Source: Pseudovirgaria hyperparasitica (Eukaryota; Ascomycota; Dothideomycetes; Acrospermales; Acrospermaceae). Taken from it: DNA of 64,000 nt. The stretch lies in the NCBI RefSeq assembly GCF_010093815.1, contig NW_022985573.1, forward strand, positions 1,685 through 65,684. The letters run 5' to 3'. Shown here one piece after another: positions 3,521-61,680 of the stretch; the stretch's first letter is position 1, and each line of letters begins with the position of its first letter. The notes beneath the pieces are model-generated. The model was not told where the DNA came from and ran no database searches. It was given only the letters and a program-made list of their open reading frames with translations. The translations under genes were made by a program, and so were the position numbers.

Positions 3521-3551
3521 TTATTAGTTAAGGGTAGCCCTTAACTAATAA
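3521..3551. repeat. 31-bp palindrome, LINE A 5' region
   Basis: Perfect 14-bp arms TTATTAGTTAAGGG and CCCTTAACTAATAA around core TAG (CTA in the LINE sense). It lies about 240 bp inside the element 5' end, upstream of ORF1. Arms contain stop codons in two frames on each strand. Confidence 0.95.
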
Positions 3552-3787
3552 AAGGGGGTTAGCGTGTCGGCGTTTATTAGATATAGTCTATACTCGTGTT
3601 ATCGAAGAGTCTTCGAGCGTATATATATAGTATCTCTATACGTTAGTATCGTCGTGTATTATACACTATACGTACGCACGTGTGTCGGAGGTTGTTATAC
3701 TCGGTGTGCTCTATCGTTTGATGTATGTAAATCGCTGTTTTACCCCGAATTGACTAGTTTAGTCCGTTAGGGTGTAAGAAGTTTTTT

Positions 3788-5202
3788 ATAGCTATATATA
3801 TAGTTCTTCCTAGTTAAATACTAATATTATTATTATTATTATAGTAATACCTCTTTAATTAGTAATAAGATATTAATATATATCTAGATAATACTCTAGT
3901 TATAGCTATTAAGTCTACTTTCTATAATAAATAATAGAGTCTTATTTATTAAGTTAATATCTTTATTATTAGAATCTCTATCTCTATTATCTATAAAGAT
4001 ATCTATATTAACTACTATTTAGATACTACTCTAATATATCTACTAGAAGAGAAATTTCTCTATATACTTATTAATTATAGTTTAGAGCTTAAGGCTATAC
4101 TCTATAAAGTTATAATAGCTATTCTAGTATATCTTAACTAGCTTAATAAGCTTAGTAGAAGTAAAGTTTATATCTAAAGTAATTATATTCTTATTATACT
4201 ATTACTTCTATATAGTAATAAATTTCTATTATCTCTTAGCTAAGTAATAGATAAATATCATAATTAACTATAGTACTATAATTAGTTCTATTTTCTACTA
4301 CTCTTATAGAAAGATAAGCTCTATAATAAGGTTCTTAGATAGGTTATTAAAGGTATTCTTATCTTTACTAAAAAGTAGAGACTAGATAATAAGATTAAGA
4401 GTATATAGAAAGTAGTTAAGCTATAAGAACTTACTTACTCTAGAAAGAGCTTAAGAGAGAAGTTCTATGGCCCTAGTATTATTACTTACTCTATTAAGAA
4501 TAAAGTAACTAATCTTATTCTTAATTCTATATCTCTTAAGTACTATAAGAGTTAAATCTCTAAAGCTTTTACTAGTATAGCTATCTCTAATCTTAGATAA
4601 TTCTAAGGAGATATTAATAAAGCTACTCTCTTTATTTATAAAGTACGCTATATAGAATTATAGAGATAGATAGTAGTTCTATAAACTCTAGCTATTAAAT
4701 ATAATATAAATCTTTAAGATAGTAGTACTAAGAATCTTATAAAGGTATACTAAGCTATATCTATAGGTATTTAAGATATAGCTTTAAAGGGTATCTATAC
4801 TCTTCTATATTAAGGCTTCTATCTCTAGATTTACTCTTAAAATAGCTTTATAGAGATAAGGGTTTTTAATAATATAAAGAGACTATAAGTTAAGTATAAT
4901 CTACTTTACTAGTAGCTAATTAAATCTATTAGAATAAAAGGTCTAGATAAGTAGATTTACTATATTCTAATCTATTCTAGCCTTCTTAACTATTATCTTT
5001 AGTATATTACCCTTCTTATACTTTCTCTTACTACTTAGATACTACTAGTATATATTATAGAGATAGTCTATAGTATTAGTAGTTAACGCTACCTTAAATC
5101 TTCCTTTTATATATTTCTCTTTATAGTAGATTTAATACTACTAGTACTTATCTCTATTACTAATTTACTCTAGATAGAAACTATACTTCTAGATCTAATT
5201 AA
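3788..5202. other. Unassigned RIP-saturated AT-rich block
   Basis: About 1.4 kb between LINE A and LINE B, extremely TpA-rich and with no long open frame. The plus strand shows protein-like stretches between stops (for example around 4430-4560), so this is probably the remains of an older transposon. I do not recognise the family and see no terminal repeats. The block continues past LINE B at 10517, because LINE B's TSD shows that 5202 and 10517 were once adjacent. Confidence 0.5.
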
Positions 5203-5442
5203 GTTAAAAACTTCTTTTACATCCCCAAGAGGCTAACTTAGTCCATTCGGGGTAATACAGCGAGATATACACCTTAATTAATAGAGTATACTAAGTATAC
5301 TAACTACTACTATACGTATGTACGTGTAGCATCGAAACTAAGACGTTATCGCCGTGTAAAGATATATATATACCCTCTTAAAATCCTCACGGAGATAGAG
5401 GCACGGACTACGCTACTAGAACGCCGATACGCCGACCCCCTT

Positions 5443-5473
5443 TTATTAGTTAAGGGTAGCCCTTAACTAATAA
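5443..5473. repeat. 31-bp palindrome, LINE B 5' region
   Basis: Same arms as the other copies, core TAG in the LINE sense, the reverse of the CTA core at the matching site in copies A and D. Lies about 240 bp from the element 5' end. Confidence 0.95.
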
Positions 5474-6829
5474 ATATAGCGGCCTTAGGCACCGATATAC
5501 CCCGGTATATACCGGATATACCCCCACCGGTACGATAGAAAAGGCCATATAGCGATATTACTAAGGGTAACCATATACCTATCTAAAACGTAGAATACAC
5601 CTAAAGGCGCACGCCGCCATAGATAGACGGAATAAAGGGGACCCTAAGAGGGGAAACCCTTCTAGATCGTATCGACTACTAGGTAGTATATATAGAGAAG
5701 GAAGCCGGAGAGGGCTAGAAGACCCTCCTATATATATTCTAGAACCTTATCTAGAATCTAAAGGGAATTACGGAGGAGGAGAAGAAGATATAACTAGGAG
5801 GACTAGAGGACAGGCTCGACTAAATAGAGGCTAGCCTACGTAGAATCTAGGAGGAACTTACTTAAGGTAAGCGCCCTAGTATATAGGTATAAATAGTAGT
5901 AATACTAGAGGCTATACTATAGGCCCCCCGGACCGGTAACGCGGCGTATAGTATACGCGTTATAATCTAGGATAAGGATACCCTAGTATAGGTCTAGTAA
6001 GCATCCCTAAAGGATATAGTAAGTAAGATTAATAAATAAAAGGGAATATAGTTAAACGTCGTCGCCGCTAAACTCACGCTAGGAGGAGTAGTACTTACCA
6101 CGATAACGAATATTACGTAGTAGACTATCTTGCGTAATCCGAACGCGATTAGTAGTATCTTCCTAGGCGCCTCTATTAGGGCGGCTATATACCCGATATA
6201 GGTATACTCTATGCCCGTAAGCGGATAGGTTATTAGAGAAGAGGATATTACGCGGATAGAATAGTTAAACAAGCGAAAATACCTAGGGATTAAGATCGTA
6301 AGAGTATAGTAGAAGAATATATAAGGGATTAAAACCAGATCGAAGGTATACTCTACTATAATAGTAGAGCTTAAGGACCCCGCCCTCGCGTATTAAATTA
6401 TATAAGAGGGATTCCTAGCGGAAGGGGAGCTTCTTATAGCGGAACCATAGGATAGAGCATAGGCGATAATATAGTGCTTTAACTATTAGGGATACGGGTA
6501 TACGGTATAGCGGTACTCCTAAAAGACTAGGTATAGGTAGTATTAATAAGAATATAGTACCTAGGAGTACCCCTACGGGACACGAGGAGAGGGCTAGAGG
6601 GATAGAGATACGGCGAAGTACTCTAACTACGACGGTAAGTACCCGTCGTGGTCGGCTACGTACGCGAAACGTAAATAGGTTACTAAATATATCTACTTAA
6701 TCCGGATAAAGGGAGTAAGATAGCTATAAATAATGCGATCTACTACTATTCCTCTCTTTACTATAATACTATTACTATAGACTACCTCCTTATAAGGAAG
6801 CGGTTAGGAATGGTAAACCGTCCCAAGAA

Positions 6830-9800
6830 AGCTAATAATAGAACGGCCCTAAGGAATTACTAAGGCCGCCGCCGTACGAGGATAGTCGCGTCTTAGAGGA
6901 ATAAATATATAGGTCTATATATTCCCTAGCACCTAATAAGAGACTAAGATATACTCCTAATTATATAGATAAACGTATAGTATAAACGTAAGAACTAGAC
7001 GATACTCCTCGAGGAGACCGGAGCTATAATACTCGCTATATAGAAGCTATATAAATACTACTAGACGAATAAACCAATAACACACCTAGGATATTATATA
7101 ATACACCCCCTAGGACCGGAGAGGAGAGTCCTCTTCTATATCTATAAGTCTATTCTACTCTTATTATAGTTATATACTAAACGGGATAACCTCCGGATAA
7201 CACTATACCTCTAGATAAATATTAGACCCCTCTACATATATAATATATATAATTAGAACCGATCGCTTTAGGCGGATAATATACTTAAGGGCACTACCGA
7301 GCTAGGATAATACATCCTCCTAGGAGACTTTAACCTCTATTATAGCTAGTAGGGTGGACTAACTATTACCCGCGAAGAGCTTCGAGCTAGAGAACTACGT
7401 ACCTAATACTATAGCTTTCTATACCTTCTTATACTAGTAGAATAGATTACCTAGCGAAAATATAAATAAGATAAGGGCGGATCCATACTCGACCTTACCC
7501 TAGCCACTAGATATATTTATAATAGAACTTAATACTACCGCCCAAGCCTTATATAGATAGACTCCGACTATAAATGCATGGAGACTATAATAGACGTATC
7601 TACCCCTTAAGACTAATAAGGGCGATAGCTATAGAAGGATACTAACTAGGAAAAGTACCTAAAGGACCTGGAATTAATAATCCTAGACCCGTCTATAGTT
7701 AATATATCTAATGGCCCGGCTATCGACCAGGCCGTGAATACACTCCTATAGGCGTACTAGGGAGTAAGAGATAAACACGTGCCGTACCGAATATATAGAC
7801 CCCTAGACCCGAAAAGTATATCTTAAGTATAAGAGTATAGGCGAGAAGTCCGGAGATTATATATACGCGTATACTATAACCGTATACCTAAAGCATAGGA
7901 TAAATAGAGAGAGGCGAGAAGATAATAAGATAAGGTCCTCCGTAACGAGCGACGTAAATAGTAGCGTATAGTCACGGATAGATATACACGTAATACTACT
8001 AGACTATAGTATATAGTAAAATAGGCTAAAAGCACCGCCTCCCCGACACCTATACCACTTATACCTCCCCTTATATATTAAGAAAAGACGTACTCCACGA
8101 GCCTCGAGAAAATAGAGATTCTATAAGAGGTTATGTTCCCTCTCCTAGAACCCGTAGACCTATTAGATATTAATAGCACGGAATACCCGGAAGCTATAAG
8201 TATCCCTAGGGAAATCACGGACGACGATATACTCGGCGCTATTAAGACACTCCTAAATAATAAAGCGCCCGGGCTAGATAGAATTCCGAATCGATACCTT
8301 AAGAGGACTATATAGGCGACCTTACTAATTATAGGCCATATATTCCGAGCGTGCGCCCGTATAGGATACTATCTATAGAGCTTCTAAACTATATACATAG
8401 TTATACTCCTAAAACTAGGGAAGAGCCTAAACACGCCGAAGGGATAGAGGCCGATCGCCCTCCTCTCCTACCTTAGTAAGGTACTAGAAGCTACGATTAC
8501 TAAGAAGATAAGTATAGTAGTATAGGTACACGGCCTTCTCCTAGTAAACTAGAAGGCGAAGATATAAAGCTCCCTAATTATAGCTATTTAATATATCCTC
8601 GAGGTTATCTAGACTATATAGAAATAAGGACGAGTCGTCACGCTACTCTCCCTAGATATAGTAGAGGCGTTTAATAAGGTAAACTATATAAGACTTATCT
8701 ATAACCTCTAGATAAGGCGAATACCTAAGTAGATTATACGATTTATATAGTCCTTCCTCGCGTAAAGGACTACTTAAATATATATCCCCGGATACCGAAG
8801 CGAATATAAGGAGATAGTATACGGCATCCCGTAAGGGAGTACCATCTCCCCGATCCTCTTCCTCTTCTTTATAGTAGACCTCCTTTAGAGAATAGAATAT
8901 ATAGAGATAGTCGGATATATAGACGATATATATCTCCTCACGGTCGATAGTAGTACTAGTAGAACATGTACACGACTCGAACGAGACCACGAGAAATACG
9001 TCTAGTAGATAAAGCGCTACGGAGTAAAATTCGCACCTAAAAAATACTAGCTTATATACTTTATTAACCGCTATAGAGGATAGGCTACTAGGGAGGGGGC
9101 ACGTCGCCCCTAAATCGACGCCTTTATAGAACTACCAGCATAGAGTATATAAGCACTCGGCGTCATAATTAATAATAAGCTAAAATAGGGACCATAGATG
9201 GCACACGCCGTCTCTAGAGCCCTCTAGGTAGAAACCGCTATACGCCGGATTACGGTATCCACGTAGGGAATAGCCCGGGATAAGGCGAGACAGCTATATA
9301 TCTCCCTAGCACGCCTAGCCTTTATATATAGACACGAGTGCTAGTATACGGCCCTTATATAAGCTCGGCGGGTAAAGCTTAAGTCCATATAAAACCGTAT
9401 ACTCCGCCTTATCTCCGGTATATATAAAGCTACTAACACGACGCTCCTCCGACGCGAGATAAATGTAATAAGTATATAGGACTTCTACTAGATATAGAGA
9501 CTTATATACTTTACTAAATAATAAGTATAAGAACGTGGAGGAGATAGGGTATATACCTTCGCCGTACTACGTACACGTATCTATACATATTACTAGGCCC
9601 TCCCTACTATAGGATAAACTCGAGTATAATATAAATACTATATAGAGGCGGACTCAAGCTAGACCGTGTAGAAGGTTTAAAATAACCCAGACACCATCCT
9701 AAGCTAATAGAGCCCTAAGGAGCTTAGCCGCGTTATATAGTTATAGATCTAGGATAAATAGAGGGAGGTACTTAAAGCCTAGTGGGCCTCCTAATAGAAT

Positions 9801-10190
9801 AGGTATCTAGAATAGATCTAAGGGCCTTAGAAGGAACTAAGTAAATAGATATATAAAGGGCTAACGAAGGCCTAAGCATCTATACTCCTCTAAGCCCGAA
9901 TAGGCGCTATAGGTCTCCTATATTATCTCTACTAGAGAGGCGTTCTAGATATATCTTTCTAGTGCGAGGACTACGGCCGGAGAGGTATAATACGCCACTA
10001 CCTTACGACGTGCTCTAGCCTCTATACCCTAAGATAAGCCCTCGTCTATATAACGAGGACCTCTAATATCACGCGATAGCTTAATAAGTACCCTAAGGAC
10101 GTCGCCCGATGGATACTCGTACACCTTCCTCTCCCCTAGTTCTAGTAGACCCGCGTATATATACCGGAAGAAGCCTAATATATGCCGGAA
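6830..10190 (+). pseudogene. LINE B ORF2 remnant (endonuclease-reverse transcriptase)
   Basis: Remains of the polyprotein that nicks target DNA and primes reverse transcription. GDFNLYY at 7324-7344 corresponds to the exonuclease/endonuclease/phosphatase-family GDFNxHH motif. The RT domain spans roughly 8130-9000, with NNKAPG near 8250 and the catalytic YIDD at 8916-8927, where both Asp codons survive, unlike in copies A, D and E. Near 9965-10020 a Cys-rich segment (CEDYGRRG followed by HYLTTC) matches the terminal Cys/His cluster common in fungal Tad-type LINEs. The reading frame is broken by many stops, mostly where Gln or Trp codons would become TAA/TAG by C-to-T or G-to-A change. Outer boundaries are approximate. 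Confidence 0.75.
8133..8315 (+). pseudogene. LINE B reverse transcriptase, N-terminal open fragment
   Basis: Open 60-codon stretch beginning MFPLLEPVDLL and containing NNKAPGLDRIPNRYLK, the RT entry motif. It is the diverged counterpart of the fragments at 658-873, 40754-40969 and 63549-63779. It forms part of ORF2 and is not an independent gene. Confidence 0.85.
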
Positions 10191-10231
10191 GAACCCTAGT
10201 ATACGTTAGAAGAACCCCGGGAGAACGGCGA

Positions 10232-10262
10232 TTATTAGTTAAGGGTAGCCCTTAACTAATAA
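10232..10262. repeat. 31-bp palindrome, LINE B 3' region
   Basis: Core TAG. The arms extend by one base to ATTATTAG and CTAATAAT. Lies about 235 bp before the element 3' end, after the last ORF2 motif, mirroring the 5' copy. Confidence 0.95.
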
Positions 10263-10516
10263 TCTCCGCACCTATACGTGCTACCTAAGGGTAAACTATT
10301 ATAATATAGGCTATAGACCTATAGATAGCCCCTAGGGCTATATATATATAAAGAACGAGAGGATAGATAGAGCGTAGTTATGGATATGAGGGAGTTTTTC
10401 CTATTTATAGGTTTCTTCTTATATAGTAGCTTAGACTAGAGGAGGCATGCGCCTATAGAGTGGTACTCTACCTAGTTTACTAATATTATTATTATTATAC
10501 TTCTAGATCTAGCTAA

Positions 10517-10886: not shown

Positions 10887-11258
10887 TATGGAAGGCCGCT
10901 CCTACAGCCCCACATGTATGTGTCCCTGGCTCGATTACATGGCTCATTGTATATTTAAGGAGGGCGTTTTCCTTGGTCATTCTGCTCGGCACGCTTCCCC
11001 CATCACGAATATTCGACGATTCGACCTTTCCTTACGTTCATGGGCCTCTATGGGTATTGATTATTAGGCTTAGCTATTGATAAATTGATTAAGAGTATTA
11101 TATAGACCCGTCCTATCGTAAAAGAGAACTAATAAGAAGTCGTGCGTTCAAAGAGAACTCATAATACCTGGGAGAGATACTTGTGAGTTCGTCGCGACTA
11201 CTATACTAAGAACACAGCCATTTACAAAAAGGGACATACGTGGTAATAGCTTATTACA
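10887..11258 (+). repeat. Gypsy 1 5' LTR
   Basis: 372 bp, direct repeat of 21926-22297. Termini read TATGGAAGG and TTACA here. Comparison with the 3' LTR of copy 2 (TGTGGAAGG) and with the 3' LTR here (TCACA) gives TGT...ACA as the original ends. Confidence 0.92.
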
Positions 11259-11758
11259 ATTTTAGAGGTCGTACCCGGACCGCGAACTTACAGGGGGAGA
11301 TTAGGACTCCGAAACTAGCTTAGGGGAAGTATATGGCGTGCCTAATAAGGTAGTCTAGACTTACTAGATCGAAGCCACGAGTCCGGAAAACAGGGAGTCT
11401 AGAGTCGCTAGGGGCTAGCCTCTTAAAAGTAGCCGTAAAAAGCATGCGCATGCTAACACGGGTAATAGCGCGACTCGAAAATGTCTTAGGGGAATAGGAT
11501 AAAACAGGGCCAGATAAAGCAGCAAAGAAGAGTTCAAAAACGACAAATACAACCTGTTTAGTGCTACTATAGCTGTTATTCATAAACACGGCCACACGAG
11601 TACACCACTTTAGGAACGCCTTATACGAAGATAATAACATAAGTAGAATACCATGAACCTTATATCGATAAAGACGATAGTAATAGTTCACCTTATAAAG
11701 GGATTAATTAACATAAAGAAGGGATAATAGGTGTTATGGGTAGACGCATTGGGCCAAC

Positions 11759-11788
11759 CTTTAGTTAAGGCAATCCCTTGACTAATAA
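11759..11788. repeat. Degenerate palindrome before the Gypsy 1 gag block
   Basis: Arms TTAGTTAAGG and CCCTTGACTAA with a looser centre. It lies about 85 bp upstream of the gag-like block. It retains CTTGACTAA, suggesting that the original palindrome arm was AGTCAAGGG before CpA to TpA change. Confidence 0.75.
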
Positions 11789-11873
11789 CCTTACCCCTAG
11801 CGTCTCTACTAGCACACCTACTACTAGTAATGGTGCGATAGGAGCTTAAAACGACCTAGTAACTCGTAGAGAG

Positions 11874-13930
11874 ATGCTTAACTTCTTCGTAGCATTTGCG
11901 CGACAAGGAAGGATGGTACCTCTATCTACTCTAGCCCCCGAGCGCTTTGAAGGAATAAACATTACGGCCTTCCTTCGGAAGTACGAGGACATATATATAA
12001 ACTATAAAGTTCCGCCTAATAAGAAGATAACCTCTCTACCGTTATACTACGAGGACTATCTCCGTCCTACTATTAAAGGAATGGGTGGGTTTTAGAAATA
12101 GTAGTGGGCCACACTACGTAAAGAATTATTAAAGGAATTCTCTCTATTTGACTCCGCCCTCGAGGAAGGCACCATCTACTTTATCCGAAAATACGTAGAA
12201 ATGGTTAAAGCAGACCCATCCTACTCTCTCCCCATGTACTACTCCCGGTATCGTGTTATTACGGAGAAACTTACGGCTAAAGGAAGCCTAAGCTCGTATT
12301 CGCGAATAGAGCTCTTCCTAGAAGGGCTGCCTAATAGTCTTAAGGCTCGGGCTATAGAGAAATATTAACTCACGATGGAAGTACATAGTTACGACTAGGT
12401 AATTATCTATGGCTTCGTATTACGAAAGGCTAGAGTACTTAAGGAACTAGCTCGTATTAACAAGCACTTAGCCGCATAAGAGCTGGCCATAGCCATATAC
12501 CATAAATCAAAGATAGGGAGTAAGAAGACTAGCTTAGAAGAGCAGTTACATGAAGAAAGAAGAACTAATGAATTTAGCCACCCCTTTCTAGTTAAAGTAT
12601 ATATCGCGCTAGGATTGGATAAGTTCAACGAGATAGTAGAGAGATTTAGTAAACTAGACCTCACGTCAATTAAGATAAAGTCCTACTTTACCTCTAATCC
12701 CTTATTCTCATCCCTTAAGAAGTACGAACCTAAGCTACTTTCGGCTATTATTAACTAGTAGGCGCGAAGGCTAAATCTTTTAACACACCCCTAAGTACGA
12801 GGCATGCCTATAGAACTAACGTAAGTTTATCTATAGAATTATATATAGAATAGAGAATACGTCTCCACCCGAGACTCCTAAGGAGGCGTTATAGCCTAGG
12901 ATAGGCCTCGAAGACCGATCGTGTGCATCACGTACGGAGGAGATTACCTAATATATAGATGTCCGGAGATGGTAGGATACATTAGAGACGGATTACTAAA
13001 TATTAACGGGGTGCGAGTATTCCGAGGGCGTTTCGGGGCAAACGGAGAAGAAATTCTATTACTACCCTCCTCGGTAGGGCCATAAGCTACCCTATAAGCT
13101 ATCCGGAACTACGTAGTAACGGTTTAAAACGGCCTAAGCTAGTACGGAGAGGGAGTAAAGGTTTCTACGTCCGTAGTAAACATTAACGCTTTATAGGGAG
13201 TGCCGGTATATAGTATTAGTGCAAAATCTATAAAGGGTCCCTACTAGGCCTCGGCGGACAGCGATTCGGAAGAAGAAGTTACGTCGCCCGAGAGTAAGAA
13301 AGATAGATATATAGAATTCCACGAACGCTTCGACGTGGCTAGTAATAGATATATCCGCGAGGAAATAGCCCTAGAAGAGCCTACTATACTTGTAATATCT
13401 AGAAGGGGGATCACGAAGAGTACACCTAATTATACTAAGGAAAGAAAGATCGCCTATCTCCGCGGAATACGTGAAGGGTAGTATATAAGAATTATTAAGG
13501 AATAGGAGGACGGCGAGAAGAGTGGCGACTAGAGAACGTCTAAATAAGAGCTAACGGCGCCTAAGGATAAGATGGATAAAGGGGATGGCCTAAATCCTAG
13601 TTAAAAGGCACGTATCCGAGGCGTTAAGCTTAATAACTATCTACGCGAGGGACAGCGGCTAAGCATAGAAGCTAGCGAAGCATGGCTGGTACGCGTTCTA
13701 GGGACAACTATAAATATTACTATTAGCGAACTATTAAGCCTTAATAGTAACTTACGTCGTGCGGTGTTCGAGAAGGGCGCCCCCGACTTCATAGCTAGAG
13801 AGGTCCGCGAGGCTCGAGAGGAGAGAGCTAAGAAGAAAGGAAGAAACGACCATGCCATGGCTCCCGAGATAAATAAACTTAATATATTAGCACCCCTCTA
13901 TGCCACGGGGACGGCCATTATATAATAAGA
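11874..13930 (+). pseudogene. Gypsy 1 gag-like block (fossil)
   Basis: Begins with a segment reading FEGINITAFLRKYEDIY, typical of the capsid-region N-terminus of fungal Ty3/Gypsy elements (a pattern like FEGxNITxFLxxYE). Gag would form the particle that packages element RNA. Broken, with multiple breaks. The matching block in copy 2 begins near 49751. Extent is estimated from the start of the protease-like region. Confidence 0.75.
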
Positions 13931-13949
13931 CATTAATTAGCTTAAAGAA

Positions 13950-18020: not shown

Positions 18021-18468
18021 CTTACGGAACACCTCGACGACGCCACACGAACCCGGGTGGAAGTGGTGATTCCTACTCCGCAAGGCTTTAATAGAGAGAA
18101 ATATTTACGTTTCCCTAGAATCGATATCTCCTTCTAGGGGATAGAAGTTTTTTTAAGGAGGGAAGGAATGCTTGTAAAAGTAGTCTTATAACGATGAACT
18201 CTATTATCGAAAGAGGATGATAAACCCTATCATTACTATAAAATAATAAAACCCATTATTAAAGTAAGCAATGCTCGAAAGAAGACATAATGGCGTTTAC
18301 GCGAAATTCCACCTACCACATATTAAAACCGGTCGTGTAATCGAAGCCTACCTATCGAAGGCCTATTTCGTTACTATAGAACGGGCCCTATTAGGAACTA
18401 ATAAGGAAGAAAAGAAGAAGAAGGTATAAGAGAAAAAGATACTTATAGGAAGTCTTATAAGGATGAGA

Positions 18469-18576: not shown

Positions 18577-18793
18577 TATACGGGCCTACGGCCGTTGGCA
18601 AGGATCATTTATAAAAATTACTATATACCCGGCATTCGAGGAGGCATAAAAAAGAGAACTCAAGATAGTATATAACTCTTCCCTCTTACACCTCTCCATA
18701 TCTCCTTAATTAATAAAACCTCCTCCTCCACTTCCGCCTCGCTTAAACTACCTCTTCTTAGAATGTAACTCGCCGATAGAACTAATAATAATA

Positions 18794-37165: not shown

Positions 37166-37169
37166 GCCC

Positions 37170-48809: not shown

Positions 48810-48813
48810 GTAC

Positions 48814-49130
48814 TATGGAAGGCCGCTCCTGCAGCCCCACATGTATGTGTCCCTGGCTCGATTACATGGCTCATTGTATATTTAAGGAGGGCGTTTTCCT
48901 TGGTCATTCTGCATGACACGCTTCCCCCATCACTAATATTCGACGATTCGACCTTTCCTTACGTTCATGGGCCTCTATGGGTATTGATTATTAGGCTTAG
49001 CTATTGATAAATTAATTAAGAGTATTGTATAGACCCGTCCTATCGTAAAAGAGAACTAATGAGAAGTCGTGCGTTCAAAGAGAACTTATAATACCTGGGA
49101 GAGATACTTACGTGGCGATGGCTCATCACA
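48814..49130 (+). repeat. Gypsy 2 5' LTR
   Basis: 317 bp, starts TATGGAAGG and ends TCACA; the short LTR form. Direct repeat of 59802-60118. Confidence 0.92.
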
Positions 49131-49633
49131 TTTTTAGAGGTCGTACCCGGACTACGAACTTACAGGGGGAGATTAGGACTCCGAAACTAGCTTAGGGGAA
49201 GTATATGGCGTGCCTAATAAGGTAGTCTAGACTTACTAGATCGAAGCCACGAGTCTAGAAAACAGGGAGTCCGGAGTCGCTAGGGGCTAGCCTCTTAAAA
49301 GTAGCCGCAAAAAGCATACGCATGCTAACACGGGTAATAGCGCGACTCGAAAATGTCTTAGGGGAATAGGATATAAAATAGGGCCAGATGAAGCAGCAAA
49401 GAAGAGTTCAAAAACGACAAATATAACCTGTTTAGTGCTACCATAGCTGTCATTCATAAACACGGCTATATAAGTATACTACTTTAGGAACGCCTCACAC
49501 GAAGATAATAACATAAGTAGGATACCGTGAACCTCATATCGATAAAGACGATAGTAATAGTTCACCTTATAAAGGGATTAATCAACATGGAGAAGGGATG
49601 ATAGGTGTTATAGGTAGACGCATTAGGCCAACC

Positions 49634-49662
49634 TTTAGTCAAGGTAATCCCTTAACTAATAA
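49634..49662. repeat. Degenerate palindrome before the Gypsy 2 gag block
   Basis: TTTAGTCAAGG ... CCCTTAACTAATAA; homologous to 11759-11788 but with the CpA retained in the opposite arm. Together the two copies indicate original arms with AGTCAAGG. Confidence 0.75.
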
Positions 49663-49750
49663 CCTTACCCCCAGCGTCTCTACTAGCACACCTACTACTA
49701 GTAATAGTGCGATAGGAGCTTAAAACAACGACCTAGTAACTCGTAGAGAG

Positions 49751-51807
49751 ATGCTTAACTTCTTCATAGCATTTGCGCGATAAGGAAGGATAGTACCTCT
49801 ACCTACCCTAGCCCCCGAGCGCTTTAAAGGAATAAATATTACGGCCTTCCTTCGGAAGTACGAGGACATGTATATAAACTACGAAGTTCCGCCTAATAAG
49901 AAGATAACCTCCCTACCGTCATACTACGAGGACCATCTCCGTCCTACTATTAAAGGAATAGGTGGGTTTTAGAAATAGTAGTAGGCCACGCTACGTGAAG
50001 AATTATTAAAGGAATTCTCTCTATTTAACTCCGCCCTCGAGGAAGGCACCATCCACTTTATCCGAAAATACGTGGAAATGGTTAAAGTAGACCCATCCTA
50101 CTCTCTCCCTATGTACTACTCCCGGTATCGTGTTATTATAGAGAAACTTACGGCTAAAGGAAGCCTAAGCTTGTATTCGCGAATAGAGCTCTTCCTAGAA
50201 GGGCTGCCTAATAGTCTTAAGGCTCGGGCTATAGAGAAATGTTAACTCACGATAGAAGCACATAGTTACGACTAGGTAATTGTCTATGACTTCGTATCAC
50301 GAAAGGCTAGAGTACTTAAGAAACTAGCTCGTATTAATAAGCACTCAGCCGCATAAGAGCTAGCCATAGCCATATACTATAAATCAAAGATAGGGAGTAA
50401 GAAGACTAGCTTAGAAGAGTAGTCACATGAAGAAAGAAGAACTAATGAATTTAGCTACCCCTCTCTAGTCGAAGTACACGTCACGCTAGAATCGGACAAG
50501 TTTAACGAGATAGTAGAGAGATTTAGTAAACTAGACCTCACGTTAATTAAGATGAAGTCCTACTTTACCTCTAATCCCTTATTCTTATCTCTTAAGAAGT
50601 ACGAACCTAAGCTACTTTCGGCTATTATTAACTAGTAGGCGCGAAGGCTAAATCTTTTAATACACCCCTAAGCACGAGGCATACCCATAGAACTAACACA
50701 AGTTTATCCATAGAATTATATATAGAATAGAGAATACGTCTCTACCCGAGACTCCTAAGGAGGCGTTATAGCCTAGGATAGGCCTCGAAGACCGATCGTA
50801 TACATTACGTGCGGAGGAGATTACCTAATATATAGATGTCCGGAGATAGTAGGATACATTAGAGACGGATTACTAAATATTAACGGGGTACGAGTATTCC
50901 GAGGGCGTTTCGGGGCGAATAGAGAAGAAATCCTATTACCACCCTCCTCGGTAGGGCTATAAGCTACCCTATAAGCTATCCGGAACTACGTAGTAACGGT
51001 TTAAAACGGCCTAAGCTAGTACGGAGGGGGAGTGAAGGTTTCCACGTCCGTAGTAAACATTAACGCTTCATAGGGAGTGCCGGTATATAGTATTAGTATA
51101 AAACCTATGAAGGGTCTCTACTAGGCCTCGGCGGATAGCGATTCGGAAGAAGAAGTCACGTCGCCCGAGAGTAAGAAAGATAGATACATAGAATTCCACG
51201 AACGCTTCGACGTGGCTAGTAATAGATATATCCGCGAGGAGATGGCCCTAGAAGAGCCCGCTATACTTATAATATCTAGAAGGGGGATCACGAAGAGTAC
51301 ACCTAATCGTACTAAGGAAAGAAAGATCGCCCGTCTCCGCGGAATGCGTGAAGGGTAGTATATAAGGATTATCGAGGAATAGGAGGACGGCGAGAAGAGT
51401 GGCGACTAGGGAACGTCTAAATAAGAGCCAACGGCGCCTAAGGATAAGATAGATAAAGGGGATGGCCTAAATCCTAGTTAAAAGGCACGTATCCGAGGCG
51501 TTAAGCTTAATAACTATCTACGCGAGGGACAGCGGCTAAGCATAGAAGCTAGCGAAGCATAGCTAGTGCGCGTTCTAGGGACAACCATGAATATCACCAT
51601 TAGCGAACTATTAAGCCTTAATGGCGACTTACGTCGTGCGGTGTTCGAGAAGGGCGCCCCCGACTTTATAGCTAGAGAGGTCCGCGAGGCTCGAGAGGAG
51701 AGAGCCGAGAAGAAAGGAAGAAACGACTATGCCATAGCTCCCGAGATAAATAAACTTAACGTATTAGTACCCCTCTATACCACGGGGACGGCCATTATAT
51801 AACGAGA
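49751..51807 (+). pseudogene. Gypsy 2 gag-like block (fossil)
   Basis: Counterpart of 11874-13930. The same FxGINITAFLRKYEDMY segment occurs near 49825-49880. Broken, multiple breaks. An open stretch at 51566-51802 near its end has no recognisable domain. Confidence 0.75.
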
Positions 51808-51826
51808 TATTAATTAGCTTAAGGAA

Positions 51827-54800
51827 GAGATAGTAAGGCTAGTAGCCGAGTGTCCGAGATACCCCGTGGAAGTTAGTCCTAAAAGGGCGACTAGTATAGT
51901 ACTATTCGATAGTGGCGCGTAGGTAAATAGTATTCGACTAGATACTGCGAGGCGTCTTAGGCTAGCGATATCTTCGCTTCTACCATATATAAAGAACTCG
52001 AGTTTAGTTAGCGCTACTTAGCATAGCACTCTATTCGTAGGAATAGTATAGTAATACCCTATCCGTATAGGTCGGATCGTTATAGCCACTTCGATATTCA
52101 TGTATAGCGAACTTAATCATGACCTTATCCTAGGGGAGCCATATACTAGGTAGGCCTTACTTACGGTATAGAGGTTAGCCTCCGGGTAAGTACTCTTAAT
52201 AGTCTACTCCGTATATGGATAAGAACGTATAACCTTCGAAACCAGTCCGGACGAGTATATTCTAGTCTTAGAGAAGAAGGGTAACTCCGTGGCTAGAGAC
52301 TAACTATATAGTAGAGTATATCGCTAGAAGCCGGAGTTAAGCCGGATTATTAGTTAAGGGCTACCCTTAACTAATAATCCGCACTAAATAGGGTCCGGTG
52401 AACCTACTAACGAAGGGGATAGGATATATTTTTATATAGATATAGAAATAAGTTATATAGAGTTGCTTTCCGAGAAAATCCGGCCTGAAAATGTTACTCG
52501 GTTATCGAGAAAAGATAACTTAGCCGCCCTAGTTACGGCGGTAAGGTACGCTACCTTCGTATATAAATAAGGCACGATAATAGAACGGCTTATAGTAGGC
52601 TCTACCGGCCTCTAAAGACGGTATTCATCCGGGGTATCAAAGGGATTTAGTATGGCTACCATGTATAAAAGAAAGGGAGTTAAAGTACACCCCGTGGATG
52701 ACTCCGAAGCCCACCGAAAGGTCCCTAGGAATCCATTAGGGTATCTAGACTAGCGTGAACGAGCAATCGCATAGTAGGCACTTCTTCCGGCCGTGCACCT
52801 AGGCCTTAACGTGTTTAATAGGCTAATAGAGCCTCGAAGGGTAACTATCCCGCTAGGAACACATCTAACGCCTCTACGTATAAGTTAGCTAAAGATTAGA
52901 ATAGAGCTACGTCCCGCGGAACTTAAGTTACTATATATGATCTTATTATATCGCGAGGAAGCACTAGCATGGGAATTCTCACACCTTAGTAAATTTAATA
53001 AAGAGGTGGCACCTCCGCAGGAGATCCGAACGGTAGAACATAAGGCATAGTAGGCTAAGAACTTTAATATTCCTAGAGCCCTTTATAGGAAGGTACTCAC
53101 GATCCTAAAAGAGCGTCTTAATAGTAGAAGGCTCGAGCCCTATAGTAGTCCTTATTAAAACGTCTATTTTCTCGTGGAAAAGAAGAAGGAAGCCAATAAG
53201 GAACGAGATCATAGGTTAATCAATTCGGCGATAGAAATCAACCGAGTTACTATTCGTAATGCGGCCACGCCGCCCTCGTATAAAGAATTCTCGGAGCACT
53301 TTACGGGGATAGCCGTCTTGACATTTACCGACTTCTTCTTAGAATATAATTAGATTCCATTAGTAGAGCATTACCGAGACTTAACGGGGTTTATAACGCC
53401 CCTAGGATTACTACATGGGATAATATTACCTTAAGGGGCCACTAATTCAGTAGCTTAGTTCGTTAGGATTATATTAACTATTATATAAGAACATATCCCG
53501 GAGAGGGCTCTACCATTCCTAGATAACTTAGACATTAAAGGACCCACGACGAAATATAACTCTAAGGAGGCCCTGCCTAGAATTCGTAGGTATATCCTAG
53601 AATATTTAATTAACGTGGATAAGGTTCTCGCGGATATAGAGCGCGCCGGATACGCCCTAAGTAGTAAGAAGACTTAGTAGTATGTTAAAGCCGCTAACGT
53701 TATAGGATACGTCTACGGTATTAAAGGGAGGCGACCGAGTAATAAAAAGGTTACTACTATTAGGGACTAGAAACCCTATAAAAACACGACGAATGTGCGA
53801 GCCTTCCTTAGCGTTTATATATATTTCCGGATATAGATCCCCGGGTACGCTATTATCGTATCGCCGCTATTTATACTATTAAAGAATAAATCGGCCTAGT
53901 AGTAGATAGCTAAGGAGTAGACCTCGATGGACGCGCTAAAGATAGCTCTAACCACTACTCCTGCACTAATAACGTTACGGTACGGGATAGGTACGGGAGA
54001 CATAATCCTAGTAGTAGACTCTAGTAACGTTAGGTAGGGGGCTATATTAATATAGGAGAACGAGGATTATAAACGTTAGCTATCGCGGTATAATGGAGGA
54101 ATATAGTCAAAAGCTAAGAGAAACTACGACACCGTGAAACTAGAGTGCCGAGCCCTCCTCCACGCGTTATAGAAGTTCCGGTAATACCTCTATAGTACGT
54201 ACTTTATTATGGAAATAGACGCGAATACTCTAGTTACTTAAATTAACCGTACCGTAACTAACTTGCTAGGGGCGCTCGTTACCAGGTGGCTCGCGTGGAT
54301 TTAGCTATAGAACTTTATAGTTAGGCATGTACCTAGGAAGCGTAACGTAGTCGCTGACGGTATCTCACGGATGTACAAAGGAGAAGAACTACTAGACGTC
54401 CCTACCTTTAACCTAGACGAGTTCGTGGACATGGCTCTATATATAGACGTGCTAGAGATATCGTTAATTAAGCCTATTAGCGGGAGAGATTATATAATAG
54501 AGATACTCGACTATACCGCCATTAAGTCTCCCTTAATAGATGAATATAGCGATAAATAGTAGAGGATTATGAAGTATCTTACTATACTCAAGAGGCTAAC
54601 CGACCTAACCGACCGAGCGTATAAGGCCTTTATAACCGACTACCTAAAGTTCCTCGTGTATAACCGAATACTCTAGCGGAGAGGAGATGGGCATCGCTAA
54701 CACACACGAGTAATTAAGGATCCGAATACTAGGGCGCGTATAATTACTACTACTTATAACGAGATAGATTATAGAGGCAGCGAAGGGACCCTCGGAAGGA

Positions 54801-55897
54801 TTAAGGATAAGTATTAGTGGGTAGGTATACGTAGAGACGTACGATAGCACGTGAAAACCTATAATAAATGTTAACGACGAAGCAAGCTCCTTAGAGGTCT
54901 TGATAAAGGGCTCTACCACGTTATAACGCCTATTCTTTAGTAAAGAATGCACTTAGACGTAACGATACTACCACCTTCTATAGGGTATAGTAAAGTGGTA
55001 TCTATACGAGAATAGCTAAGCGGATAGACTAAGGCGGAGGCATGTACGGCGGCCACGTCCATAGTCGTCGCAAAGTTCCTCTTTAAGAACGTGATCTATA
55101 GATATGGAATTATTCCTAAAATCACCTATAATAGTGGTAGAGAAAATATAGGTGCCATAGAGGAGCTCCTCCGACTCTATAGAATTTATTAGAAGGTTAT
55201 ATCTATATATAATCCCCGAGTAAATGGGATTATTAAGAGAAGTTTTATACTACTCGCTAATACTCTCGCGAAGATAACTAATGGCGGATTCAAGAACTAG
55301 CCCGACTACCTCTATACGGTCGTCTAGGTAGATAGAATAACGACACGTGCTAGTATAGGGTATAGTGCCGTATACCTCGTGCTCGGCTATAAACCAATCA
55401 TGCCTATCGAAGTCGAATTTAAGTCGCTCCGAATGCTCCCTTAGGACAAGGTGCGATTAACGTCCGACTTACTCGCTCTTTAAGCTAGATAACTTAAGAG
55501 AAGATCCGAGGATCTTAAGGAGGCCCATGCCCACGCGACACGAACGCGTAAGGAATTAAGAGAGGCATGGAATAACGACCATTACCTTCGTTAAGAGTCG
55601 TTACTAGTCGACACGATTATCCTCCTATACGACTCGTAGTAATAGAAGGACATAGGGCGAAAGCTAAGGTAGCATTAGAGGGGGCCATATAGAATCTAGT
55701 CCGTGTTTAATTATACTTATAAGCTCGCGGAGCTTGATAGAGCCATACTTAGAGGGACGTTTCCTAGCCATAGGTTAAAGAAATATTTTATAAGAAATGC
55801 GGGTAACGAGAGTCACGACGAGCCCTCGTGACCACCGATTAGAAGAATTACCGAGGAAAATGAGGAGAGTAGTAATAAGGAAAACTATTATAAATAA
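51827..55897 (+). pseudogene. Gypsy 2 pol block: protease, RT, RNase H, integrase (fossil)
   Basis: Counterpart of the copy 1 pol block, same domain order, about 37,877 bp downstream. Fossil with many breaks. An open stretch at 54371-54559 lies between the RNase H and integrase regions. Confidence 0.8.
52347..52377. repeat. 31-bp palindrome inside Gypsy 2, before the RT block
   Basis: Core CTA, arms extended by CGGA/TCCG as in copy 1. Confidence 0.95.
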
Positions 55898-56345
55898 CTC
55901 ATGGAACACCTCGACGACGCCACACGAACCCGGGTGGAAGTGGTAATTCCTACTCCGCAAGGCTTTAATAGAGAGGAATATTTACGTTTCCCTAGAATTA
56001 ACATCTCCTTCTAGGGGATAGAAGTTTTTTTAAGGAGGGAAGGGATGCTTATAAAAGTAGTCTTATAACGATAAACTCCATTATCGAAAGAGGATAATGA
56101 ACCCTATTATCACTATAAAATAATAAAACCTATTATTAAAGCAAGCAATGCTCGAAAGAAGACATAATAGCGTTTACACGAAATTCCACCTACCATACAT
56201 TAAAACCGGTCGTGTAATCGAAGCCTACCTATCGAAGGCCTATTTCGTTACTATAGAACGGGCCCTATTAGGAACTAATAAGGAAGAAAAGAAGGAGGAG
56301 GTATAAGAGAAAAAGATACTTATAGAAAGTCTTATAAGGATGAGA

Positions 56346-56453
56346 ATATACCCGGTATCTATTTATTCATAGATTCCGCCATATACCCGGTAGATATATT
56401 CATTCATAGATTTCCTATATACCTAGTACATATTCATTCATAGATTCGACACG
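56346..56453 (+). repeat. Short tandem repeats between pol and third block, Gypsy 2
   Basis: Same three units of about 36-38 bp as at 18469-18576 (ATATACCCGGTA followed by ATTCATAGATT). Confidence 0.8.
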
Positions 56454-56669
56454 TATACGGGCCTACGGCCGTTGGCAAGGATCATTCATAAAAATCACTA
56501 TATACCCGGCATTCGAGGAGGCATAAAAAGAGAACTTAAGATAGTATATAACTCTTCCCTCTTACACCTCTCTATACCTCCTTAATTAATAAAACCTCCT
56601 CCTCTACTTCCGCCTCGCTTAAACCACCTCTCCTTAGAACGTAACTCGCCGATAGAACTAATAATAATA

Positions 56670-59600
56670 ATGGCCCCGCCGAAGAAGAAAACGCCTACCC
56701 GTAAAGAGTTATAAGATCGTTAAGCACTAATAAGATAGACGCGGTCCTAGTCAAGAGTCGTGAGTACTAAAGTAGGGCTATTAACGGCTATCGTAGTATC
56801 GAGGCCATCTACTACTCCGCACGGATAGGCTATAGAAGCTGCGGAAATAAATAAGTCTACTATTAACCGAATTATCGCTATCTAGGACCCGCAAGAGCGA
56901 TGGGACTATATTCTAGACACGTTTAATAATCTCCTTCATATTACCAGCCTCGTAGAATAGCTCTTAAGTAGTATAGTTAACCTCTTCTAGGAAGTAGGAG
57001 CCGTAATAGGGTATAGTAAGGCAAAGATTAACTCCTCTATTCCGAAAGAAGTCTACGAGATGATTCGTCGTAGAAGAGACACTAACTCCCGCATCCTAAA
57101 AGCCAAAAATGCAATCCTATAAAACTAGCGAAAAGATCTCCCTAATAATAACGGCTAGTTACTCTAATCCGCCCTCGGATAGCTCTAGTAAATATAGAAC
57201 TTTATAGAAAAGCTAGTAGCGCTCTTATAAGTGCGAACATGGGCGAGAGCGAGAAACTAGTTAAACGCATCCCTATAGTCCCGAATCGGCTAGGGATAGA
57301 AGGGAAGGGGAATCAAGGCATATCTTTAGAGCTCTAATATTAATACCGCCCTAGCTAGCGATAGTAACAAGGACGGCCTATCTCTCTAGTAACTCTTAAA
57401 CTACCCTAGCCGATAAAATGAACTAACGTTCTATAACGAGACGGGACTTATTATCCCCGCTAGTTAATAGTTACGGATAAGTAGAATGGTTTATAGGCCC
57501 GTCGAACACTACCTATAAATTAAAGAGATAAGTGCATCGCCTCCGCCTTAGACCTTACTATCGCTAAAACTAGCGTAGGTAACGCCCGCGGTAAAGTCCC
57601 CTCCATAAAGTACGCCTCCTAGTTTAGTAGTATATCGTCTCTTTAAAGCTAGTCGTCCGTTCGAAGTAAGTATTTCTTCTACTACTACTAGTAAACGTCC
57701 CTTACCGGGCCATGCGAGAACGTCTTTAGTGCCCGTCACGGCCACGCCGATAAAACCTACTCGCGGACGTGCCTCATCTACCGGCCCTTAGTAATTACTA
57801 GGGGCGCCTACACGATAATCCCCGGTTATTCTTAGTTTATACTCTAAGACGATAGCATCGGTCGAGGAAGAGGACGAGCCTAAGAAGTATCGATGCGCGC
57901 CTTTAGTGACGAAGACTTTTAAGGTAGCTATATCATTAAAGAAGAATTTCACGAGTATTAAGGGAATAGCCCTACTAGTGCGCTAGAAAGCGTAGATAGG
58001 TAATATGGCTGTTCCATATAAAGTCTACTATAAGCATTACCAAGACGTGGCTAGAAAGAATAATATGCTCGTTAGCGTGTCCTACTTGAACCTAGTAGCG
58101 AGACTTAAAATGGTATATGAGTTTAGAGATAACGTAGGGGCCCTTAAAGTTTATAAGGACCGCTATACCTGGTTCGCGAAGTACGCGCGGCCACCTTATC
58201 CGATAGAGGCATTAGGTATCTATCGTTACTAGGCCCTAGAGACCCTGAAGTAAGTTATTAATATTAAAACCATCCTTACTAGTATCGTATTTATAATTTA
58301 GAAGGAGGACGGTAGGATAGGTAGGTAACTCTTCGACGAGTGGGAACGTACCGGAAGTATTAACATTAAAGGGCTCTTCGAGCTACTTAAAAAGACGACC
58401 TCTATACTTAATAAGAGTATCCTAGAACTCGTGAGGGATTAATTTAATATATATAAGTACCACCAGCGCATGATTAATAAGAAATCGAACTACGGCTAGC
58501 TACAAACTATATACCACTCCTATATCTAATAGTTTATTAGGTAATACCTACTTTACTAGCTCACCTATGTCGCTCTTCGGCCCGATCTTAACCACTATCT
58601 AATCTCGTACCCGTACTATGCGAAGTCCTAGAATAGGGGCGATAAGACGGGTTTTAAGCATCTCGATAACGCCATCAATCGAATCCTCGATCCTAGCGAT
58701 AGACACGGGTTTAATATAATCTAGGGGAGTATTAGTCTCGACGACGAACGAAGTAACGACTATACCATAATCGTTCCCCGCTCCTATAAGTTCTTAAACG
58801 AATGGTAGTCGAAGGCTAAGCTCCGCGAGGGGGTCAATCGAAACGGTATAATCACGGCTATTAACGATAAGATCTATAATACGGACGATAGGAAACGATT
58901 TAGTCCCTTCGTCCCGGTCCCCTACTAGTCCCTTAAAGTACGTATCTCTAGCCCACTAATAATGCACGGCGCCTAGGGTCCCGTAAAGGGTGGAAGACGC
59001 ACGATGCTTCCATGGTATATCGCGATTGGCTCTAATTATATAATAATGGAAGTGCCTAAAATGGGCATATAGGAACAACTCGCAGCAGCTCATAGGAATT
59101 TAACTCCGGGACCCACGTCTCCGTCGGGATTTTCTAATAAATACGGCGCGATTTCTTTTGCCTTCCCAGCCGTAGTTTAACTCCCGAGTTTTAACGCCGT
59201 TAGCGACGTATTAGTCGGCCGTAAAAGATAGGACAGCTAGGAGGTAAAAGAAGAGGCAGCTGCGTGGCTTAACGCAAGTCCTTAATAACTTAAAGCCAAG
59301 GTAGACGCCTGGTTTAAGGAGGGCTCGAGGGTATTCGTGGAGACCTTTAAGAAAATGGTAAGGTAGAAAAGGCTAGTCTATGGGGATAGGTCGTTCTGGA
59401 AGGAATTTAACGAGGCGCGCGCCGCTAAGCGGCTAATTAATTTTAAGAAATTCGAGCCCGACGCGGGCCTAGATAATATTAAAGAGAACTTCTACGGATA
59501 GGAGAGGCCTAACGAACTATCCGACGAGGAGGAATCTAACCTCTCTAAGATAAGCGACACGATTCTTTAGGAGCTGGCTCGCGACCTTGAGTACTAAGAT
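56670..59600 (+). pseudogene. Gypsy 2 third coding block, possible dioxygenase-like part (fossil)
   Basis: Counterpart of 18794-21725, opening with ATGGCCCCGCCGAAG. FKHLD recurs near 58655-58670 and a HGA segment near 58965, so the HxD...H pattern is conserved between copies. An open stretch at 58005-58232 reads YKVYYKHYQDVARKNNMLVS. Broken, several breaks. Confidence 0.55.
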
Positions 59601-59623
59601 TAGACGCCTGAAAACCTACCTAA

Positions 59624-59654
59624 TTATTAGTTAAGGGCTGCCCTTAACTAATAA
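59624..59654. repeat. 31-bp palindrome, Gypsy 2, after third block
   Basis: Core CTG; about 150 bp before the 3' LTR, as in copy 1. Confidence 0.95.
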
Positions 59655-59801
59655 TCCGGGCTAAGGTTTACCCGTGCCGAGAGGTTTACTAGGGGCGCAT
59701 TTTATTTATATTAAGGTCTTTCTTTTAGGCGTTCTTCACACGGTTTCTCACACGGTTACTATACTACTAAGGGTAGTAGTTCTATGGGCCGGGGAGGTAT
59801 A

Positions 59802-60118
59802 TGTGGAAGGCCGCTCCTACAGCCCTATATGTATGTATCCCTAGCTTAATTATATGGCTTATTATATATTTAAGGAGGGCGTTTTCCTTGGTCATTCTAT
59901 ATGACACGCTTCCCCCATCACTAATATTCGACGATTCGACCTTTCCTTACGTTCATGGGCCTCTATGGGTATTGATTATTAGACTTAGCTATTAATGAAT
60001 TAATTAAGAGTATTGTATAGACCCGTCCTATCGTAAAAGAGAACTAATGAGAAGTCATGCGTTTAAAGAGAACTCATAATACCTAGGAGAGATACTTACG
60101 TGGCGATGGCTCATCATA
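59802..60118 (+). repeat. Gypsy 2 3' LTR
   Basis: 317 bp. Its start, TGTGGAAGG, is the only one of the four LTRs that keeps the original G; the end TCATA is a RIP form of TCACA. Preceded by GGGGAGG. Confidence 0.92.
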
Positions 60119-60122
60119 GTAC

Positions 60123-61407
60123 TTAGCTATATATAAATCTATAATTCTATAAGTATTATATTTATATATATATCTAATTAAATCTATATAACGTTATTAA
60201 TAGTCTTTATATTAGTAAACTTAAACTCTAGTTTACTTTTATTTATACACACGCTTATCTCTTACTTTCTAGCTACTACCTTAGAGATAGCTTCATAGGT
60301 TATATAACCGCTATATTAACTAAGCTTATATTTAGTTCTCTTATTCTAAATTTTCTTCTTTAATATATCTACCTTACTCTTAAGATAAGTTATTAATTTA
60401 TATACTATCTTCTTTAGTTTAGATCTATTTAGGTCTAGAGTAGTCTATTCTTATTAGAGCTAGTTCTATATAATCTATTCGCGTTATTATAGTTACTAAT
60501 TTAGCTTCTTTAATCGCCTTTAAGGCTAAACGGATATTCTACTATTAGATCTCTAGCTAATATATATATATAGATATCTAATACTAGTTCTATTTCTAAG
60601 TCTATCTCCTCCTCTTATAAGACTTACTCTAAAGGGATTATCTCTACTCTAGCTATACCGGCTAAAAAATCCACTTATTATAGTAGTATAAAGGCGTACT
60701 CTAAGTTAGAGAAGAAGATAGCTAAGGCTACTACTACTATTACTACTAATATAGCTACTAGTCACTCTAATCTAGGTAATTCTAGTACTAGTATTATAGA
60801 AGAGATAGCTATAAAGCCTATCTATATCTACTTACGCTATCTATCTACTCTACCTTCTTTAGAGAATAAAGAAGATCTTATTATAGATAATAATTAAGAG
60901 TTCATACCTTCGCCGCCCCGCTCTAAACGCTATTTCTCTTTTTAGTCTAATATAGACTAACTTAGTTACTCTAGGTTCTTTAAGGACCTTAATATTTACT
61001 CTAAACCTAGCTCTAGTAATAATAAGGTCTAGGTTACTAAAGATACTAAATATAGTTACGGTTTACGCCATAGAAAAATAGTAAACTATAGTTTAATATA
61101 CTTTAAGTATATTAAGGCTTATATAACCGGCTCTAAATATCTCTTCTACTCTAACTCTAGTATTAGCTACTACTCTACTAACTATAATAGGTCTATATAT
61201 CTAATCTTTAAGCTCTCTACCCGCTACCGCTACTATACTATCCTTAGTAAAGTTTATCTTTAGGTAAGTCTATTAGACTATTTTAGTCTAGAGTAATCTA
61301 AAGTTATCTATACTAATATATTTTTAGGTTTCTATTTATATATAGAATATATATAATAATCTTCGCGTCTATAAGACTCTTAGTAGTTTTAGTAATTATC
61401 TAGCTTC
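60123..61407. other. Unassigned RIP-mutated block between Gypsy 2 and LINE E
   Basis: About 1.3 kb. The plus strand from about 60590 to 61320 has long stretches with few stops and a Ser/Tyr/Lys-rich composition (for example LRYLSTLPSLENKEDLI near 60830), so it was probably coding once. I cannot assign it. It is continuous in origin with 47641-48809. Confidence 0.5.
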
Positions 61408-61649
61408 TATAATAATAATAATAATAATATTATATAACTAGGTAGAGTAGTACTCTACAGGCCTATGCCTCCTCTAGTCTAAGCCACTATGTAAGAAGAA
61501 ACCCCATAGGGAAAAACTTCCTTATGTCTATAACTACATCTCGTTAAACCTCTGTTTCGTCTTAAGTATATAGCTATAGGGTACGCCTATTAGCCTATAG
61601 CCTATATTACCGTTATTTTACCCTTAGGCAGCACGTGTAGATGCGGAGG

Positions 61650-61680
61650 TTATTAGTCAAGGGCTGCCCTTAACTAATAA
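61650..61680. repeat. 31-bp palindrome, LINE E 3' region
   Basis: Core CTG. The left arm keeps the pre-RIP form TTATTAGTCAAGGG while the right arm has TTAACTAATAA, direct evidence that the family arm was AGTCAAGGGC. Confidence 0.95.

Follow-up and report, generated by a model that had tools for sequence, protein, structure and literature searches.

The genome of the ascomycete Pseudovirgaria hyperparasitica carries a 31-bp palindrome in two unrelated classes of retrotransposon, long interspersed nuclear elements (LINEs) and Gypsy elements. We analysed a stretch of 64,000 nucleotides of this genome (the window; C25:1685-65684 of 59 contigs totalling 35.03 Mb), in which all twelve palindromes fall inside four LINE or two Gypsy copies. 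The fixed contexts of the palindrome, together with the lack of a target duplication of at least 3 bp at any of eight site versions and of V-palindrome-G contexts among the genome's Y/R-exact copies, identify it as a cis-element shared across classes at fixed internal positions, two in the LINE (L5 and L3) and three in the Gypsy element (G1, G2 and G3), rather than as a free mobile unit. The palindrome was acquired by at least one of the two families otherwise than by common descent, and its copy number, as far as the contexts go, comes from the copying of its hosts and not from movement of its own.

Sites of the palindrome in LINE and Gypsy elements

A full-length scan of the window returns nine 31-mers that match TTATTAGTTAAGGG-NNN-CCCTTAACTAATAA exactly (at 3521, 5443, 10232, 14470, 21748, 38840, 43617, 52347 and 59624). 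The tenth full palindrome, at 61650, shows one difference, a C for T that represents a single base unchanged by repeat-induced point mutation (RIP), and two degenerate palindromes at 11758 and 49632 show 5 differences each. These counts bear out the original prediction, which described ten near-identical and two degenerate palindromes, every one in a LINE or a Gypsy element. A search with the arm alone, allowing up to 2 mismatches, gives 24 matches against 2.6 expected, a number reached in 0/100 shuffles. Two lone arm-like 14-mers with 2 mismatches, at 18703 and 56579 in one shared Gypsy position, form no palindrome, lie within chance and were set aside. The palindromes of the window are listed below by class.

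3521..3551, minus strand: palindrome, class L5; lies 2 nt ahead of the probable ATG of the first LINE open reading frame (ORF1)
5443..5473, plus strand: palindrome, class L5; the ATG reads ATA at this copy, as after RIP
43617..43647, minus strand: palindrome, class L5; likely ATG at 43614-43612
10232..10262, plus strand: palindrome, class L3; LINE ORF2 stop TAG within the left arm, frame taken from L028 and L040, two copies with little RIP
38840..38870, minus strand: palindrome, class L3; from the full-length scan
61650..61680, minus strand: palindrome, class L3; one arm un-RIPed (TTATTAGTCAAGGG)
11758..11788, plus strand: degenerate palindrome, class G1; 19 nt past the probable start codon of gag (11736-11738); read in frame it gives S(Q)GNPLTNN, the Q codon being a stop at this copy
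49632..49662, plus strand: degenerate palindrome, class G1; from the full-length scan
14470..14500, plus strand: palindrome, class G2; within the gag-pol frame, arms reaching 18 bp
52347..52377, plus strand: palindrome, class G2; from the full-length scan
21748..21778, plus strand: palindrome, class G3; holds the TAG that ends the third Gypsy ORF and lies 147 bp ahead of the 3' long terminal repeat (LTR)
59624..59654, plus strand: palindrome, class G3; from the full-length scan

Four of the five sites touch coding borders, as judged from ORF borders that were taken from RIP-damaged copies. The ATG that follows L5 after 2 nt is Kozak-like (CTAATAACCATGGCGGCC in subfamily A), and L3 contains the ORF2 stop TAG, which in little-RIPed copies reads ENPDY-stop or ENSDY-stop. 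The presence of stops within the palindrome is to some extent a circular argument, because two of its three frames contain them. G1 and G2 are read in the sole frame that was stop-free before RIP, as SQGNPLTNN and ISQGLPLTNN, and by eye G2 falls before the reverse transcriptase part of gag-pol, with RNase H and integrase found downstream by Pfam. A role for the shared peptide (SQGxPLTNN in G1 and G2) was rejected: L3 and G3 use another frame, and SQGxPLT is present in 0/36 proteins, 35 of them LINE ORF2 relatives.

The host elements of the window are as follows.

1..3787, minus strand: LINE copy, subfamily A; truncated by the window start; 93% to 40097-43883 by self-BLAST
5190..10498, plus strand: LINE copy, subfamily B; two palindromes; 73% to the LINE copy at 38605-43898 by self-BLAST
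38602..43900, minus strand: LINE copy, subfamily A; two palindromes; RVT_1 at E 4e-11, with stops as X
61392..64000, minus strand: 3' part of a LINE, subfamily A; truncated by the window end; 92% to 38602-41190 by self-BLAST
10887..22299, plus strand: Gypsy copy 1; LTRs at 10887-11260 and 21926-22299, the pair 95% identical; RT_RNaseH at E 3e-15; Integrase_H2C2 at E 0.003, under the cut-off
48808..60116, plus strand: Gypsy copy 2; 93% to Gypsy copy 1 across 11.3 kb

The assignment of the hosts to unrelated classes, also made in the original prediction, stands. Pfam places RVT_1 in the LINE frame, self-BLAST gives no LTR-like direct repeat in the LINE copies, and PF00078 is found in 35/35 relatives of LINE ORF2 (22-31% identity; several named fungal, one from Xenopus). 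The other elements have LTRs of 374 bp and RNase H before integrase, as in Gypsy elements (Metaviridae); in the second half of their frame RT_RNaseH covers residues 535-658, and Integrase_H2C2 covers 800-852 below threshold. The third Gypsy ORF (18794-21757 of the window, about 988 codons, with X at stops) has no Pfam match, and gag has no relatives at E<=1e-5 in a search that was weak, the query having X at many stops.

The original prediction proposed searching the whole genome for the arm, and that search places the palindrome at a small number of fixed positions within the elements. The genome contains 426 exact palindromes and 531 that deviate from the RIP-tolerant form by at most 3 mismatches, against 0 for a backward control. 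By flank patterns applied genome-wide, 146 of the 426 exact copies are L5, just before the LINE ORF1 ATG, and 138 are L3, over the ORF2 stop; the two LINE positions thus hold 284/426. The other 142 are taken to be Gypsy sites G2 and G3, assigned by sample and not individually, since sampled palindromes were automatically classed almost entirely into four sites. That sample consists of 48 Y/R-exact palindromes from the window and from fetched loci mostly chosen for carrying a palindrome, with duplicate loci excluded, and 46 of the 48 were classed (L3 16, L5 13, G2 9, G3 8). The two exceptions are L028, a LINE 3' end missed by a strict pattern, and L029, a chimeric junction. A spacing of about 7.3 kb among the matches listed fits the G2/G3 assignment. 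The palindrome has 0 matches in IMG/VR and 0 in a prokaryote genome collection. Literature searches with the arm strings and peptides gave animal papers alone among the matches listed, and the name of the fungus appears in none of the ten papers listed, out of 23,536 matching, in a further search.

Copying with the hosts, insertion and exchange

Among the explanations first considered for the palindrome was a tiny mobile unit that uses transposons as hosts, which should leave empty sites and target duplications. Neither trace was found. The longest direct repeat abutting the palindrome is 0 in 7/8 site versions and 2 nt in the remaining one, and there are 0 empty sites among 58 BLAST-spanned copies from the window and the fetched loci, most of which were chosen for holding a palindrome. 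All 58 spanned copies contain it (L5 14, L3 19, G1 8 with 4-5 differences, G2 9, G3 8), and a further LINE 5' end, L006, has a palindrome with 1 mismatch. The zero count of V-palindrome-G contexts also argues against many independent insertions, which would produce such flanks. With few fixed contexts, and with two LINE positions holding two-thirds of the exact copies, we reject a freely mobile palindrome resembling miniature inverted-repeat transposable elements (MITEs). MITEs and other small palindromic elements are likewise short, symmetrical and present in many copies; the palindrome differs from them in lacking visible target duplications and dispersed contexts, and it is far shorter than usual MITEs.

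One relative of the palindrome, outside the LINE and Gypsy elements, speaks for an ancient version of this idea. At C19:255587-255633 we find an un-RIPed, imperfect palindrome of 47 bp whose longer arms have extension letters of their own. It lies in single-copy intergenic DNA (its 601 bases match nothing else in the genome), with the 3' end of an 885-codon Myb ORF on one side and that of a DNL zinc-finger gene on the other. The palindrome in the retrotransposons might then be the fossil of a tiny MITE-like or hairpin-derived insertion that entered few times and long ago, its survivors at tolerant sites being copied with their hosts. The sites do fall at tolerant places, namely borders of untranslated regions and a linker, and G1 and G2 sit in the one frame that was open before RIP. 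Against this, the eight site versions have no abutting repeat of 3 bp or more, the 58 spanned copies include no empty site, the Y/R-exact copies of the genome show 0 V-palindrome-G contexts, and 31 bp inserted without a duplication would shift the frame at G2. We therefore regard a fossil insertion as unlikely.

Ordinary recombination or template switching by reverse transcriptase could instead have carried a small fragment of the LINE into the Gypsy element or the other way round, in which case the palindrome would be a passenger remnant or a hotspot of switching with no other function. Such joints do occur: L029 (C47:11016) fuses the palindrome and some 20 bp of LINE 5' flank to another Gypsy family's pol immediately after FTTAP. 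Since the codons that follow, LLVK, would correspond to the palindrome arm, this junction may involve microhomology. Short flank likenesses are also seen by eye, with CGCAC after both G2 and L3 and GARAAC before both G3 and L3. Flank likeness between LINE and Gypsy sites is nevertheless at the level of chance: 2/48 anchored comparisons fall below p 0.05, both on the left side of L3 versus G2, with a lowest p of 0.006. A longer segment shared by LINE and Gypsy copies, which would have explained the palindrome by ordinary recombination, is thus rejected. Template switching would in addition require several Gypsy places with nearly identical cut points, and we consider it quite improbable.

RIP and the shared dyad core

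The LINE and Gypsy elements are strongly RIPed, with composite indices of 1.1-1.5, and each arm of the palindrome contains one CpA, the RIP target. Once RIP is allowed for, L5, L3, G1, G2, G3 and the C19 palindrome share the core TTAGTCAAGG-N5-CCTTGACTAA, a pair of inverted 10-bp half-sites. The 5-bp spacer is constant in length and varies in its letters (GCWGC; CAATC in G1; GATTC in C19). Inverted half-sites, fixed spacing and conserved letters are the features of a dyad site. The reading of the arm at 61650 as the ancestral form is also confirmed: CAAGGG is the unmutated form, and the genome holds six un-RIPed dyads.

Twenty-five dyads in the genome differ from the un-RIPed form by at most 1 mismatch. 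Among those with a CTG, CTA, CAG or TAG core, one arm is un-RIPed in 8 and both arms in 3, set against 426 exact palindromes in which both arms are RIP-changed. The other 14 comprise 9 half-RIPed G1-type dyads, 1 un-RIPed G1, the C19 palindrome and 3 with another change (C22, C39, C45). RIP has since left almost no copy with intact half-sites, and the copies present today are mostly fossils. When 14 of the 25 dyads were read in context, 12 proved to be LINE or Gypsy sites, one the chimeric junction on C47 and one the intergenic copy on C19.

These patterns bear on the near-identity of the palindromes, which carries little weight as evidence. Between two LINE copies of subfamily A, 2 transversions are found across 5,283 columns; the two Gypsy copies, compared over 2 kb, show 0 transversions in 2,009 columns, with 18 gap columns. 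Saturation by RIP and low divergence predict near-identity, so that it requires neither selection nor recent spread; recent spread read from identity is rejected on these grounds, with the single CpA of each arm RIP-saturated and transversions few. Between LINE subfamilies, 1/31 columns of L5 hold a transversion or gap (outside windows are as good or better in 15/518 cases), and 4/33 columns of L3, where the inner 21 bp are conserved except for the centre base (equal or better in 21/539). The palindrome is better kept across LINE subfamilies than most windows, though not uniquely. A diverged LINE 3' end outside the 58 spanned copies, L034 (C45:24164), has kept the inner 21 bp and changed the outer arm; by eye, its ORF2 frame apparently continues through the palindrome.

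We further note non-RIPed coding pieces resembling non-ribosomal peptide synthetases (AMP-binding, PP-binding, Condensation) on the minus strand of the window at 22891-25783 and 31715-37973, with an AT-rich block (GC content 0.23) between them at about 26000-31000.

Candidate functions of the dyad

The same arm letters recur in four contexts with unrelated flanks, indicating that the sequence is shared and not its symmetry alone. Fixed spacing, a variable spacer and identical arm letters in several contexts fit a dyad recognised as DNA, and we tentatively favour, at somewhat less than even chances, the reading of the palindrome as a putative site bound by a dimeric host factor that LINE and Gypsy elements alike would use. 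A host dimer would bind the dyad as DNA in both element classes, and the site, near the start or end of coding parts, might serve as promoter, insulator or roadblock. The first candidate for its reader would be a Yap1-like factor (an AP-1-like basic leucine zipper protein), because the arms contain TTAGTCA and TGACTAA; both occur in the un-RIPed arms, in inverted orientation. One study gives TGACTAA and TTAGTCA as Yap1 sites (PMC6545440). Relative to those elements, the dyad is longer and its spacing is fixed. The factor, its binding and its effect are inferred.

Several observations weigh against this reading. For a host factor one would expect more than the single host copy, on C19, among the 14 dyads read in context. 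The centre itself comes close to a palindrome (GGGCWGCCC), a property of no use to a spacer, and the sites hug ORF borders, which a DNA site does not require. L034 lacks one of the Yap1 sites (it reads TCAGTCA), the link to Yap1 is a 7-bp match, and conservation between LINE subfamilies A and B is unexceptional, the run with L3 ranking third in the element.

The hugging of ORF borders would suit a functional RNA hairpin, a stem present in both transcripts that would affect the start or end of translation, processing or packaging of the RNA, or its reverse transcription. The sites touch the LINE ORF1 ATG (2 nt), the gag ATG (19 nt), the LINE ORF2 stop and the Gypsy ORF3 stop. A stem is predicted in 6/6 contexts folded (z -3.5 to -5.5; equally stable shuffles 0/200), of 10 bp at G1, of 15-18 bp at the four other transposable-element sites folded and longer at C19. 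These z-scores prove little, however, because any palindrome folds. Pairing of the flanks across the core exceeds that at random places for the G1 copy of the window (p 0.018), G3 (p 0.022) and C19 (p 0.043), but 8/11 such tests are not below 0.05, including that of a less RIPed G1 copy, L031 (p 0.148). An A to G variant in L039 and L040 retains a G-U pair in the sense RNA. No compensatory change on both sides was noticed in alignments checked by eye. Moreover, a stem directly before the AUG should hinder scanning, and identical letters in four contexts exceed the needs of a stem. On balance, we judge a hairpin function somewhat unlikely.

The neighbourhood of the C19 palindrome points to another possible reader. 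The palindrome lies 0.76 kb downstream of the Myb ORF, whose closest relative among solved structures is S. pombe Reb1 (5eyb, E 4e-11). Among 6,838 candidates scored, the Myb protein has no relative at E<=1e-10, its matching Pseudovirgaria record aside. The dyad might accordingly be an RNA polymerase I terminator or fork-barrier site for a Myb protein like Reb1 or TTF-I, borrowed from ribosomal DNA (rDNA). The AAGGG of the arms resembles the S. pombe site, and CAAGGG and TAAGGG each occur once within about 115 bp past the end of the large-subunit (LSU) rRNA gene. The idea failed its test, with AGTYAAGG absent from either strand of a 3,021-base rDNA locus reaching about 1.2 kb past the LSU end, in a copy that looks RIPed and is the sole match to the LSU pattern. 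Together with the lack of Myb relatives, this leaves a borrowed terminator hardly credible. The locus itself (L046, on C40), matched by its LSU rRNA 3'-end pattern, shows A/T-rich, RIP-like changes by eye and has a group I intron at 357-647.

The favoured binding-site reading has precedents. Tf1 and Tf2 of S. pombe have a Sap1 site in their LTRs, a conserved retrotransposon-borne site for a sequence-specific host DNA-binding protein (PMC5371812). Sap1 and Tf elements are a precedent for retrotransposons with a host-factor site, but the Sap1 site lies in the LTRs of one class, whereas the palindrome is internal, is found in both LINE and Gypsy elements and has a putative reader only. The su(Hw) insulator of the Drosophila Gypsy element is an internal protein-binding element near the coding start, made of clustered sites. 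The palindrome is likewise internal and near a coding start, but it is single and present in two classes, as opposed to clustered sites in one element.

That retrotransposons carry host-factor sites is thus already known. The same long palindrome at matching places of LINE and Gypsy elements would provide a rare natural experiment, in either convergent capture of a host site or exchange between classes. A bolder scenario, which we hold to be somewhat doubtful, is that the two classes converged on or traded one palindrome bracketing their coding parts, that a single host factor or RNA-level step controls both, and that the copy near the Myb gene is the host source site. The copies also illustrate how RIP makes old copies appear freshly identical, and the palindrome is a ready probe for finding its factor.

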